This document shows positions 1 to 6,380 of a stretch of DNA of 6,380 nucleotides, piece after piece. The DNA is from Fidelibacterota bacterium. Lineage in GTDB: Bacteria; Fidelibacterota; UBA8477. Location: positions 1 to 6,380 of the forward strand of contig JAIPJR010000108.1 in assembly GCA_021734045.1 (NCBI GenBank), read 5' to 3'. Every line of letters starts with the position of its first letter. Position 1 is the stretch's first letter. Made by a program: the position numbers and the translations under genes. The notes beneath the pieces are model-generated. The model was not told the origin of the DNA. It searched no databases and saw nothing but the letters and a program-made list of their open reading frames with translations.

Positions 1-1923
1 GTTGCTGGTCCATCCACCTCCTCCCAGTTCTTCGCTCAGCACTTCCAGTCCCCGCTGCCGGTTGGCTATACTGTAAATCAGATTGCTGTATTAGCCTCCG
101 CTGATGCCGCCCGAACCAACTTTGAGAAATTCCTTGTTGTTGGTTCAGACGTAGACGGTATGCCGGATATGGAAAACGTGCTGTGGAGCGCCACCAATAT
201 CCAGGCAGCGACCTATCCGGAAGTACGCTGGGAGGTTGAGGATGTCGGTGCTGTACCGGCAACCACTGACTTCTGGGTGCTGGTACAATGGCCGGAAGGC
301 AATACCATGGGTCCCTATATCGCTGCCGATGAAGACGGCATGCCGCGGGAAGCCTCCTTCTGGACTTCCGATTCCGGTATGACCTGGAACGGTGTTGCTG
401 ATAACTTCATGATTCGCGCCTTTGTTGGTGAAACGCCTGTTCGTGAGCAGGTTGCGCTGGCAAGTTATACCGTGGAAGCCGCTAAGATTACGACGCGGCG
501 TGCGGTTGGCGTTAAGGAAGACTATGTGGCTAACAGTGGTCACACAGAAGCACCGGGCCTCTACAACGCGACCCGCGAACTCCAGAGCTACAATGTCTAC
601 CGGACCACAGATCCGGAAGTCTGGGGTGACGTGTATGCTAATGTGGCCAGCACCTTATTTACCGATATGGATTTCGCTTTCGAAACCGACTATTGGTATA
701 CGGTGACCGCTGTTTACGATGAAGGCGAATCGGGTCCTGATATGCCGGTGCATGTATTTGAATGGACGCCGCTGTATCTCAGCTATGTGGAAACCTTCGA
801 TTACGAAGATGACACACCGTTCGACTCCATTGGTTGGGTTGCGGATGATGGTGAAGGTACAGATGGCAACTGGAACATCGAGGATATGGCCGCTCACTTT
901 GATTGGTCACCTTCCCTGGATTCCGGTTTTGTCCATACACTGACTTCACCACCGGCCGATCTCACGGATGCGACGATTGTTCGCCTGCGCTTATTCCAGT
1001 TCTTCGATGATTACGATGATACTGAGAACGGCTTGTTTAATCTGAAAATCTCTGCCTCCTCCGATGGTTTCGCTTCTGAAACCGTCTTGTGGACGCATAA
1101 CGATTCGGTCTTTGGAAATATTGAAGGTGAATTCGCTTTTGATGTTTCTGAATTCGCCGGTTCAGACAATGCACAGGTTCGATTCACGGCTTGGGGTGAT
1201 GATTCCTTCACCATGGACGGCTGGTGGATTGATATCGTAATGGTGGAAACGGATATGTTCCCCAACGAGCCACCGATGGCATTCAACATGCTGACACCTG
1301 CAGATGGCGATACCGTAGACATTACCACCGCCAATTTGGAAACAGATATGCTAACCCTTTCCTGGGAAGCTGCTGTTGATCCCAATGGTGATGAGGTAAC
1401 CTACGGCATTATGCTGGGTGATGGCCTGGCCAATAGTATCGCCTTTGGTGATACTACCGGAACCAGCGTTTCTATTCCGCTGGAGGCAATCTACACAGTG
1501 CTTCAGGCTGCTGGTGAATCAATGGTGTCTGGTGAGTGGGGCATTTATGCCACAGATGGTGTTGATACCACCTGGGCTGAAAATGCACCGTTTACGCTGA
1601 CGATTGATGCGTCGACGGTCTCCATTGATAACATGCAGATTCCGGAAGTCTATGCCTTGCATCAGAACTATCCCAACCCGTTCAACCCAACAACCACGAT
1701 TCAGTACGATCTGCCGGAAGCGACAGATGTGACACTGGTTGTGTACAACATGCTGGGTCAGCGGGTGGCCACCCTGGTGAATGGTCAACAGTCGGCTGGC
1801 TACTACACCATCCAATGGCGTGGTTTGACCGACACGGGTACGCCTATTGCGTCAGGTATTTACCTGTATCGCATCCAGGCTGGCAAGTTCAGCAAGACCC
1901 TGAAGATGATGTACATGAAGTAA
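1..1923 (+). CDS. Secreted multidomain protein with C-terminal type IX secretion sorting domain (5' end outside window)
   Basis: The reading frame is open from the first base, so this is the last 640 residues of a larger protein whose signal peptide and any catalytic domain lie upstream. Numbering in the visible part: residues 50-155 form a beta-rich segment of unknown family (ends in the FMIRAFV strand). Residues 190-260 look like a fibronectin-III-like repeat (LQSYNVYRT ... [12 protein letters not shown]). Residues 262-418 resemble the jelly-roll 'choice-of-anchor J'/MAM-like domain of secreted proteins (starts YVETFD, ends WWIDIVMVE). Residues 423-536 are Ig/cadherin-like ([12 protein letters not shown]). 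Residues 551-640 are a type A T9SS sorting domain: QNYPNPFNP at 555-563, then [24 protein letters not shown] and a basic end KTLKMMYMK. In the family this tail directs export through the outer membrane and is usually removed on attachment or release. The protein is acidic with almost no cysteine, typical of extracellular proteins. Enzymatic function cannot be told; many such proteins are peptidases or adhesins. Confidence 0.9.
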
Positions 1924-2628: not shown

Positions 2629-4077
2629 ATGAAATTGCGACCGATACAGAACACGACACTTCTATTAACACTTTTCGTTTTACTGACATCTATGACCCGG
2701 GCAGACGGACTGAATATCGCCCGGGCATTGAGTGATGCTTTCTCACAGATTGCGGAACAGGTACAACCCTCCGTGGTGACCATTACCAGCGAACAGGTCA
2801 TTAAGCACCCGGCATTGAATGGCCGTGACGGACGGAATCCATTCGGCGATAATCCCTTCTTCTGGTTCTGGGGGCCCGACAATAACCGTGAATTCAAAAC
2901 CACCAGCTTGGGTTCCGGCGTCATTATTGACGCTGATGGCTATATCGTCACAAATAACCATGTGGTGGAAAAAGGCCAAAACATAAAAGTCCAACTCTAT
3001 GATGGCAAAATTGTGGATGCGGAAATTGTGGGAACCGATCCCAAAAGCGATGTAGCCCTGATAAAAATTGATGCAGATGACTTGAAGCTCAAAGCAATTA
3101 CCGTGGGAAATTCTGATAACCTCCGTGTGGGAGAATGGGTCCTGGCTGTGGGCAGCCCCTTTGGCAGCGAATTGTCGCATACGGTCACCCAAGGGATCGT
3201 CAGTGCTATTGGTCGCTCTTCCGTGGGGCTGGTGGATTATGAAAATTTCATCCAGACCGATGCCGCCATTAATCCGGGCAATTCCGGGGGGCCGCTGGTG
3301 AATCTGGATGGTGAGTTGGTTGGCATTAACACCGCCATCGCCTCCCGTAGCGGTGGCTACCAGGGTATTGGTTTCGCCATCCCTGTGAATATGGTCAACC
3401 GGGTTACCAGTGACCTGCGTACCAAAGGCAAAGTAGTTCGTGCCTGGCTGGGTGTGAAAATTCAGAGTGTGGATGCAGACATGGCAAAAACTCTGGAACT
3501 GGACTATGCCCAGGGTGCCCTGGTAGGTGAAGTAGTGAAAAACAGTCCTGCGGATGATGCCGGCCTGGAGGTGGGAGATGTCATTACCAGGGTCGATAAA
3601 AACGACGTGAAAACTTCCCGCGACCTCATGAACATGATCGCTTCAAAACACCCGGATGAGCGGGTATCCCTTACCATTTTACGGGACGGAAAATCCAAAA
3701 CAATTAAGGTGAAACTGGCTGAATTTCCCGAGGAATACAGCCTGGTGAGCAGCTCCCGGCAGCAAATGACCACCAATCTGGGTATGCAGGTACAAAATCT
3801 CACACCCCAGGATATCAAGCGTTATGGATTGGATGAAGACAGCCGGGGCGTGCTGGTGGCCAGCGTCATGCGGGGGAGCGAAGCCCAGCAGAAAAATATT
3901 CAACCGGGCATGCTCATTGAAAAAATGGGACCCATCGTGCGTGAGCTGGAAACCATCACCTCAACCAACGAATATCACCGTCAGCTGTCACGATTCAAAC
4001 CCGGTGACACAGTGCTCTTCCTCATGCAGCGGGAAGGCGAGAATTTCTTTGTGGCCCTGACGATTCCGGAGAAGTAA
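2629..4077 (+). CDS. degP: Do family (HtrA/DegP-type) periplasmic serine endopeptidase
   Basis: A complete 482-residue protein of usual length for Do proteases (E. coli DegP is 474). Residues 1-25 are a Sec signal peptide (MKLRPIQN, then a hydrophobic core, cleavage probably after MTRA), so it acts in the periplasm. The trypsin-like domain spans about 30-265. Its catalytic triad is visible as His111 (TNNHVV), Asp141 (KSDVALIKID) and Ser219 (NPGNSGGPL). The LA-loop region between 65 and 90 is rich in aromatic residues (NPFFWFWGPDNN). PDZ1 covers about 271-365 (RAWLGVKIQSV ... SPADDAGLEVGDVI) and PDZ2 about 382-482 (LGMQVQNLTPQD ... RGSEAQQKNIQPGMLIEKM). In the family these enzymes form oligomeric cages that degrade misfolded envelope proteins and can act as chaperones; PDZ1 binds substrate C termini. 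The gene has its own Shine-Dalgarno and terminator and appears monocistronic. Whether it is DegP-, DegQ- or MucD-like cannot be decided from one sequence. Confidence 0.96.
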   Translation: MKLRPIQNTTLLLTLFVLLTSMTRADGLNIARALSDAFSQIAEQVQPSVVTITSEQVIKHPALNGRDGRNPFGDNPFFWFWGPDNNREFKTTSLGSGVIIDADGYIVTNNHVVEKGQNIKVQLYDGKIVDAEIVGTDPKSDVALIKIDADDLKLKAITVGNSDNLRVGEWVLAVGSPFGSELSHTVTQGIVSAIGRSSVGLVDYENFIQTDAAINPGNSGGPLVNLDGELVGINTAIASRSGGYQGIGFAIPVNMVNRVTSDLRTKGKVVRAWLGVKIQSVDADMAKTLELDYAQGALVGEVVKNSPADDAGLEVGDVITRVDKNDVKTSRDLMNMIASKHPDERVSLTILRDGKSKTIKVKLAEFPEEYSLVSSSRQQMTTNLGMQVQNLTPQDIKRYGLDEDSRGVLVASVMRGSEAQQKNIQPGMLIEKMGPIVRELETITSTNEYHRQLSRFKPGDTVLFLMQREGENFFVALTIPEK

Positions 4078-4302: not shown

Positions 4303-5169
4303 ATGCATGACCAGCGCATCGGTATTATTGGCGGCACCGGATTGTACGAGCTGCCCGGATTTGAAAAAACTGACGAAAAAACCATCACCACCGCTTTCGG
4401 TGAGCCCTCAGCACCCCTGAAAATTTTCAAATCGGGTAAAAAAGAGGTGGTCTTCCTGCCGCGGCACGGTGAAAAACATCACCTGCTGCCCACGGAACTG
4501 AACCATCGCGCCAATATCATGGCCTTGAAAATGCTGGGTGTGAAATGGCTCATGGGCGTGAGCGCAGTAGGTAGTTTTAAGGAAGAATTACCTCCCCAGA
4601 CCATGGTGTTCGTGGATCAATTCATTGACCGGACCCGCTCGGTACAGACCTTTTTCGGGAATGGCATTATAGGTCATGTGGGTTTCGCCCATCCGACGGA
4701 ACCCGCGCTTGCTAAAATCCTGGCTGAGTGTGCGACCGAACTTGGTATCAAGCACCAATTGGGTGGCACCTATGTGAACATGGCCGGTCCGGCATTTTCT
4801 ACGGTAGCCGAATCCCGGCTGTACAAAAGTTGGGGCGCCGATGTGGTGGGTATGACCGCCCTGGCAGAAGCCAAATTATCCCGGGAGGCGGAAATTGCCT
4901 ATGCCCCGGTCGCCTTGGTGACTGACTTTGATGCCTGGCACTCGGATCACGATGCTGTCTCGGTGGAGATGGTGGTGCAAAATCTCCAGGCTAACAGCGC
5001 CAATGCCAAAAAACTCCTGACCCGCTTTCTGGAGGTGTTCGACCCAAATGATGCCGATTATCCCAGTCACCACAGTCTGGATGGGGCACTTATGACCGCG
5101 ATAGAAGACATTCCGCCAGCCACCCGAAAGAATCTGGAACCCATCCTCCGCCGGTTTCTCACTTCCTAA
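4303..5169 (+). CDS. mtnP: S-methyl-5'-thioadenosine phosphorylase (MTAP)
   Basis: A complete 288-residue enzyme, normal length for the MTAP/PNP family 2 of trimeric nucleoside phosphorylases. It cleaves methylthioadenosine with phosphate to adenine and 5-methylthioribose-1-phosphate, in the cytoplasm, and so feeds methionine and purine salvage. Visible motifs are the N-terminal GIIGGTGLY (Thr12, phosphate site), LPRHGEKH (Arg54, His55), SAVGSF at 87-92, NMAGPAFST followed by AESRLYKSWGADVVGMT (Met184 of the nucleoside site) and VTDFDAW (Asp208, Asp210). Asp at the last two positions indicates 6-aminopurine (adenine) preference; 6-oxopurine phosphorylases carry Asn there. The residue before Met184 is Gly where human MTAP has Asn. 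The start is fixed by a TAA directly before the ATG. No other salvage genes (mtnA, mtnB and so on) are in the window. The synthetase gene follows after 63 bases without a terminator, so they are probably co-transcribed from the promoter at 4186. Confidence 0.95.
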   Translation: MHDQRIGIIGGTGLYELPGFEKTDEKTITTAFGEPSAPLKIFKSGKKEVVFLPRHGEKHHLLPTELNHRANIMALKMLGVKWLMGVSAVGSFKEELPPQTMVFVDQFIDRTRSVQTFFGNGIIGHVGFAHPTEPALAKILAECATELGIKHQLGGTYVNMAGPAFSTVAESRLYKSWGADVVGMTALAEAKLSREAEIAYAPVALVTDFDAWHSDHDAVSVEMVVQNLQANSANAKKLLTRFLEVFDPNDADYPSHHSLDGALMTAIEDIPPATRKNLEPILRRFLTS

Positions 5170-5232
5170 GGGACATTAACAATATTACCCAGCGGAAATC
5201 ATAACCTTTGAAGATGAAGAATTTTGAAACCT

Positions 5233-6380
5233 ATGTCTGAAAAAAAACAGCCGAACGCCATGCAAGATGTCTCCAGTAAGGTCGATTTCATCGCCCTTGA
5301 ACACGATATCCTCGATTTTTGGAAAGACCACGATACCTTCAACAAACTGCGGCAGCAAAATGCCGGCAACCCGCGCTGGTCATTTCTGGACGGCCCCATC
5401 ACCGCCAATAATCCCATGGGCGTTCACCACGCCTGGGGACGTACCTACAAAGATTTATACCAACGCTTTCACGCCATGCTGGGACAGGATCAGCGTTACC
5501 AAAACGGCTTTGATTGTCAGGGATTGTGGGTAGAGGTTGAGGTGGAAAAAGAACTGGGTTTCAAATCCAAGACCGACATTGAAGCCTATGGCATTGAGAA
5601 ATTCGTGGAAGCCTGTAAAGCCCGTGTCTTGAAATTTTCCGCCATCCAGACCGAGCAATCCAAGCGTCTGGGATATTGGATGGACTGGGAGAACTCCTAC
5701 TACACCATGTCCGAGGAGAATAACTATTCCATCTGGAAATTTCTGAAAAAAGTCCATGATCGGGGCTTGATCTACAAAGGCTATGATGTGATGCCCTGGT
5801 GTACCCGCTGCGGTGCCGCGCTTTCTGAACACGAAATTGCCACCGAAGGGTACAAAGAGCTCACCCATACTTCCATCTACCTGAAATTCCCCCTGAAAGA
5901 CCGCCCCGGCGAGAACTTGCTGGTCTGGACCACCACACCCTGGACCCTTTCCTCCAATGTGATGGCGGCCGTGCATCCGGAGTTGGATTATGTGAAAGTG
6001 CGGCAGGGAGACGAAAACTACTACCTGGCCAAAGCGCTACTCACCATTCTTCAGGGTGATTATGAATTTCTGGCAGAGCTGAAGGGTGAAGATATGCTGG
6101 GTTGGCAATATCACGGGCCCTTCGATGAATTACCCGTCCAGCAGGGTGTGGAGCATGCTGTAATCGCCTGGGATGAGGTGAGTGAGTCTGAAGGAACCGG
6201 CATCGTGCATATTGCGCCGGGTTGTGGACGGGAGGATTATCAGTTATCCAAACGGGATGACTTTCCGGTGCTGCGCCCCATTGATGAGTTTGGGAATTAT
6301 CTGGACGGCTACGGGGAGTGGACCGGTAAAAATGTCAGTGAAATCAACGACGACATTATCCGCAATCTTTCCGAGAAAGG
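5233..6380 (+). CDS. ileS: Isoleucine--tRNA ligase (class I), N-terminal part, with altered HIGH motif GVHH
   Basis: The frame runs off the window after 382 residues, about a third of a normal IleRS. It activates isoleucine with ATP and loads tRNA-Ile. The catalytic core starts at about 17. The class I signature is unusual: [18 protein letters not shown] at 53-70 has GVHH (63-66) where HxGH is expected, and [10 protein letters not shown] at 92-101 replaces GWDCHGLPxE. [12 protein letters not shown] at 141-152 follows. A Cys pair WCTRCG (Cys190, Cys193) may bind zinc. The CP1 editing domain begins near 205 with the threonine-rich WTTTPWTL (232-239) and contains [16 protein letters not shown] (321-336), where Asp335 matches the editing-site aspartate. 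The editing domain therefore looks intact. KMSKS and the anticodon-binding region lie outside. Overall it resembles the IleRS2-like/Chloroflexota-type enzymes more than E. coli IleRS1. ATG 5233 is preferred; a TTG at 5224 is possible and a stop at 5215 bounds the frame. No strong Shine-Dalgarno is visible. Confidence 0.9.

Follow-up and report, generated by a model that had tools for sequence, protein, structure and literature searches.

A GVHH-type isoleucyl-tRNA synthetase as the probable sole housekeeping IleRS2 of a Neomarinimicrobiota (SAR406) bacterium, with predicted mupirocin hyper-resistance

Results and discussion

The ileS gene at the end of the analysed stretch of DNA (6,380 nucleotides; hereafter the window) most probably encodes the sole housekeeping type 2 isoleucyl-tRNA synthetase (IleRS2) of a Neomarinimicrobiota (SAR406) bacterium. 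The enzyme carries G-V-H-H in place of the HIGH motif and is predicted to combine full activity with mupirocin hyper-resistance. Its kind is already known, since an exchange of the first and third HIGH residues in IleRS2 and the link of this exchange to mupirocin hyper-resistance are described in the main text of a published study (Brkic 2023; PMC10485003). New are the fixation of the motif across a phylum and its pairing with an altered KMSKS motif, in a clade for which we found no measured Ki or kinetics in the published literature.

Locus and motif

The window comprises one whole contig (C95) of a genome of 2.5 Mb that is 92% complete. The closest relatives that bear a name place the organism in the Neomarinimicrobiota. 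It covers just about 382 N-terminal codons of ileS because the contig ends there (Table 1). The gene was taken to start with ATG, with TTG at 5224 as the alternative. The final 79 bases of the contig were identical to the beginning of a second contig of the same genome (C12, minus strand), which carries the rest of ileS, and the joined frame was stop-free over 1052 aa. In the genome of a sister organism, a Candidatus Neomarinimicrobiota bacterium (L084), ileS was uninterrupted and the gene order mtnP-ileS-lspA lay on one contig. The two ileS genes shared 95% protein identity and 92% DNA identity. A first-pass annotation of the window had placed the gene in a plain mtnP operon; mtnP does adjoin ileS and the context is a housekeeping one, but the operon has to be corrected to mtnP-ileS-lspA. 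In the window genome, ileS was followed at its 3' side by lspA, a pseudouridine synthase gene and then, as judged by eye, a putative tyrosine recombinase frame.

Table 1. Features of the window and the basis on which each was assigned
Feature	Position	Strand	Basis
Open protein frame with C-terminal secretion-type sorting domain	1..1923		FlgD_ig, Por_Secre_tail
HtrA-like trypsin/PDZ protease	2629..4077		
mtnP-like phosphorylase gene, upstream neighbour of ileS in the same orientation	4303..5169	+	Domain match (PF01048); adjoins ileS in sister genome L084 too
ileS 5' part, IleRS2 N-terminal ~382 codons	5233..6380	+	ORF, contig join, TIGR00392
Clade-specific motif frame, versus (GP)PTANGxP-HxGH in other IleRS2	5389..5454	+	Per-column tally, 314 typed IleRS sequences
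G-V-H-H replacing H-x-G-H (HIGH motif of class I aminoacyl-tRNA synthetases), aa 63-66	5419..5430	+	Direct reading, alignment

The motif is encoded by ggc gtt cac cac and aligned ungapped to HIGH in E. coli IleRS1 and to HVGH in the IleRS2 of T. thermophilus and P. megaterium. No H-x-G-H was present elsewhere in the full 1052-aa protein. The GxHH form that the first-pass annotation had read at the HIGH position was thus confirmed, by direct reading as well as by alignment. In L084 the motif DNA differed from that of the window by one synonymous base, in the Val codon. In other Marinimicrobia genomes 69 loci were read, and GVHH was found in all 68 that covered the motif; the remaining locus (L064) lacked the region owing to its cut point, and a few rows began near the motif through frame trimming. 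Since the motif is conserved in the sister genome despite a synonymous change, and is present in every readable locus of the phylum, a sequencing error at these positions was rejected. Between the window genome and L084, the dN/dS of ileS was 0.068, showing that the gene is under purifying selection.

The exchanged motif is therefore fixed, without exception the only form seen across a phylum that lives in the sea and in other environments, and the proposal that it could be a lineage trait held for the motif. The predicted mupirocin insensitivity would consequently date back to an ancestor and have nothing to do with clinical use.

Enzyme type and copy number

The joined protein matched the isoleucine--tRNA ligase profile TIGR00392 over its full length, with 765 bits against a cut-off of 621. 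Residues 857-1045 matched PF19302, a domain that we take to be a marker of type 2 IleRS. The domain search gave no match to the IleRS1 zinc-finger domain, and one Cys only lay beyond residue 515. In a tree with E. coli IleRS1 and the IleRS2 of T. thermophilus and P. megaterium, the enzyme grouped with IleRS2, apart from IleRS1. Profile, C-terminal domain and tree all identify it as a type 2 IleRS, as the first-pass annotation had supposed in likening it to the published GxHH form.

A TIGR00392 profile search of the window genome (92% complete) found no second IleRS; the other matches were ValRS (C107), LeuRS (C78) and weaker, putative class I relatives on C62 and C16. Among Marinimicrobia genomes of at least 90% completeness, and with the two split pieces of the window genome counted as one, 94 of 98 encoded exactly one IleRS. 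The remaining four showed none, which was taken to be due to assembly gaps. The suggestion that this might be the housekeeping and possibly the only IleRS was borne out: a housekeeping role is strongly supported by the sole copy, by selection and by the operon. In one other Marinimicrobia genome (L045 on G077:C25, and L108) the ileS frame breaks at approximately aa 577-595, just before KMSKS, reflecting a frameshift or an assembly fault.

Phylogenetic placement

IleRS sequences were sampled from Marinimicrobia, from named genome contigs of many phyla and from the phylum samples of a Rubrobacter (Actinomycetota), a planctomycete, a thorarchaeon and an acidobacterium. In a 70-row tree constructed with the motif columns removed, the window enzyme was placed in a 37-row clade (hereafter the window clade) in which all rows had GXHH or AXHH (SH-aLRT 100). 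The sister lineage of this clade contained the IleRS2 of T. thermophilus and P. megaterium along with a second GXHH group. A tree constrained to keep all GXHH rows together was worse by 213 log-likelihood units (AU p 5e-83). Under the model used, this rejects a single origin of GXHH, in agreement with the main text of PMC10485003, in which the motif arose at least twice.

The window enzyme lay outside the Thermus-side GXHH subgroup, in a separate clade (SH-aLRT 100). This does not remove it from the GXHH IleRS2, because the published account counts a second, minor GXHH clade, the ancestor of which (node 747) is GXHH. The window clade is apparently this 'minor IleRS2 clade', since Planctomycetota and Chloroflexi are named in the text for the early branch. 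The IleRS2 of D. radiodurans and S. griseus, the hyper-resistant enzymes named in the study, seem to fall into the second GXHH group, which arose independently, because the text has a Deinococcus-Thermus reversion inside a GXHH lineage. The window clade spans many bacterial phyla, a few archaea and many habitats; GVHH is an old fixed trait of this enzyme lineage and not a recent acquisition of resistance.

Thorarchaeota and one Bathyarchaeota genome encoded an IleRS of the same GXHH clade (L159 2971-6351, CP070761.1; L135, L136, L160, L137), which suggests transfer between bacteria and archaea. In the two of these genomes that were searched, it was the sole IleRS over the cut-off. The genome of Ktedonospora formicarum (G101) encoded two IleRS (L266, L267), one from each GXHH group: one had PMHKS, the other GRPGVHHIESR with KMSKS.

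Altered KMSKS motif and other active-site positions

The KMSKS equivalent of the window enzyme is DMHKS at aa 602, located on C12 and so outside the window. Of 179 window-clade sequences, 178 had D, E, P, A or some other residue in place of the first Lys of KMSKS, and 176 had His at the third position. Here and in the tallies below, loci and not independent events are counted, and some loci belong to one genome or to nearly identical ones. The second Lys is kept in DMHKS. All 35 sequences of the second GXHH group had K as the first and S as the third residue, and HxGH IleRS2-like sequences had the first K in 40 of 40. We rejected the idea that MHKS is always paired with GXHH, as KMSKS is retained in the second GXHH group and AMHKS occurs in some IleRS1-like enzymes. 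MHKS is not tied to GXHH, because it occurred in 9 of 60 IleRS1-like sequences with HxG motifs. Three planctomycetotal members of the GXHH clade (L254, L259, L260) had K/YFSKT at this position and not xMHKS.

No mention of the KMSKS change was found in the main text of PMC10485003, although its Figure 2b may show it, and the string MHKS was not found in the synthetase literature searched. In this large IleRS2 clade of many bacterial phyla and a few archaea, both catalytic signature motifs deviate. Possibly, though this is a tentative reading, the clade is doubly rewired: with GXHH plus [DEPA]MHKS, an additional His in the ATP loop and the first KMSKS Lys lost, isoleucine would be activated by catalytic side chains unlike those of any IleRS studied, and the response to the drug would be unpredictable from the published GXHH enzymes.

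A related and rather unlikely explanation is that GXHH in the window clade reflects a variant architecture of the ATP site that is linked to the [DEPA]MHKS loop, and no adaptation to mupirocin. Any resistance would then be a by-product, and the enzyme would still be a housekeeping IleRS2. The near-uniform loop of the clade set against the K and S of the independent GXHH group, the spread of the clade over many phyla and habitats, and the AU rejection of a single GXHH clade are in line with such a variant. The MHKS of IleRS1-like enzymes with HxG motifs, however, shows that the loop is not GXHH-specific, and, according to the main text of PMC10485003, GVHH by itself makes two unrelated IleRS2 enzymes bind mupirocin less tightly.

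Other active-site positions differed as well. The residue before TAN was Ile, not Pro, in 176 of 179 window-clade sequences. Where P. megaterium IleRS2 has Trp130, 161 of 179 had Gln; the window enzyme also has Gln there, as does IleRS1, and its active-site geometry may for this reason differ from the modelled case. Asn70 and Phe586 of P. megaterium IleRS1, which contact mupirocin according to the text of PMC10485003, correspond to Gly and Leu in the window enzyme, in agreement with a low affinity for mupirocin.

Predicted response to mupirocin

The main text of PMC10485003 reports G/AXHH in 86 of 379 IleRS. The D. radiodurans IleRS2 (ALHH) had a mupirocin Ki of 6.6 mM, and restoring HVGH made the Ki 823-fold lower; the S. 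griseus IleRS2 is also named among the hyper-resistant enzymes. When GVHH was put into the IleRS2 of T. thermophilus and P. megaterium, the Ki increased about 200- to 430-fold, and the enzymes stayed active at a catalytic cost of up to 10-fold. In the mechanism proposed there, the third His takes over the catalytic role of the first and causes a clash with mupirocin. The first-pass annotation had referred to a subset of IleRS2 with the GxHH form and very high mupirocin resistance, correctly so according to this text.

Judged from the published structures, the third His of GVHH would be used in isoleucine activation by the window enzyme, and GVHH would render it hyper-resistant to mupirocin. 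We infer full activity, for which the sole copy and the dN/dS of ileS speak indirectly, and resistance is plausible by analogy. Like the published GXHH IleRS2, the window enzyme is a type 2 housekeeping enzyme in which the first and third HIGH residues are exchanged. In contrast to those of D. radiodurans and S. griseus, it belongs to a separate deep clade, outside the GXHH subgroup nested with Thermus, and has DMHKS. The best PDB sequence match was the P. megaterium IleRS2 with GVHH (8c8w), which is of the same family and has the same GVHH; there, however, the exchange is engineered, in a natively HVGH enzyme with a KMSKS background. The T. thermophilus IleRS2 (1ile, 1jzs) is likewise type 2 and has Leu at the Phe586-equivalent position, but carries HVGH and KMSKS. 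That the GVHH-engineered enzymes carry KMSKS whereas the window enzyme has DMHKS counts against the preferred reading of a fully active, hyper-resistant IleRS2, and so does its Gln at the Trp130 position. The window clade offers a test of the published clash mechanism outside its source enzymes.

Marine Pseudoalteromonas make thiomarinol, a relative of pseudomonic acid; nothing here links thiomarinol to this lineage. The literature on Marinimicrobia and mupirocin yielded a match on salmon farming only, in which mupirocin was mentioned once.

An acquired resistance gene of the MupA/MupB sort is very improbable and was rejected. The MupA/MupB enzymes are of the type 2 family too and their profiles matched the window enzyme over nearly the full length, but with 679 and 685 bits the scores were far under the cut-offs of 1900. 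Whereas MupA/MupB are mobile and acquired, with plasmid MupA about 40% identical to the window enzyme, the latter is the only IleRS of its genome, lies in a conserved operon and is fixed in the phylum. A decayed, paralogous or mis-sequenced gene, to which the split over two contigs might point, is next to inconceivable and was rejected, together with a pseudogene or a hidden second IleRS, given the exact 79-bp overlap, the intact 1052-codon frame, the dN/dS given above, the occurrence of GVHH in every readable relative and the single IleRS in the genome.

Valyl-tRNA synthetase

The ValRS of the window genome (G000:C107 461-3127, L006) had TLGH in place of HxGH. Thr at the first HIGH position is known from TrpRS. 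Among Marinimicrobia ValRS loci (L333-L362), 26 of 30 had Thr as the first HIGH residue (TxGH), while the ValRS of other phyla had HxGH in 14 of 14 readable loci. With TxGH in ValRS and GVHH in IleRS, the first His is missing from two class I synthetases in Marinimicrobia.
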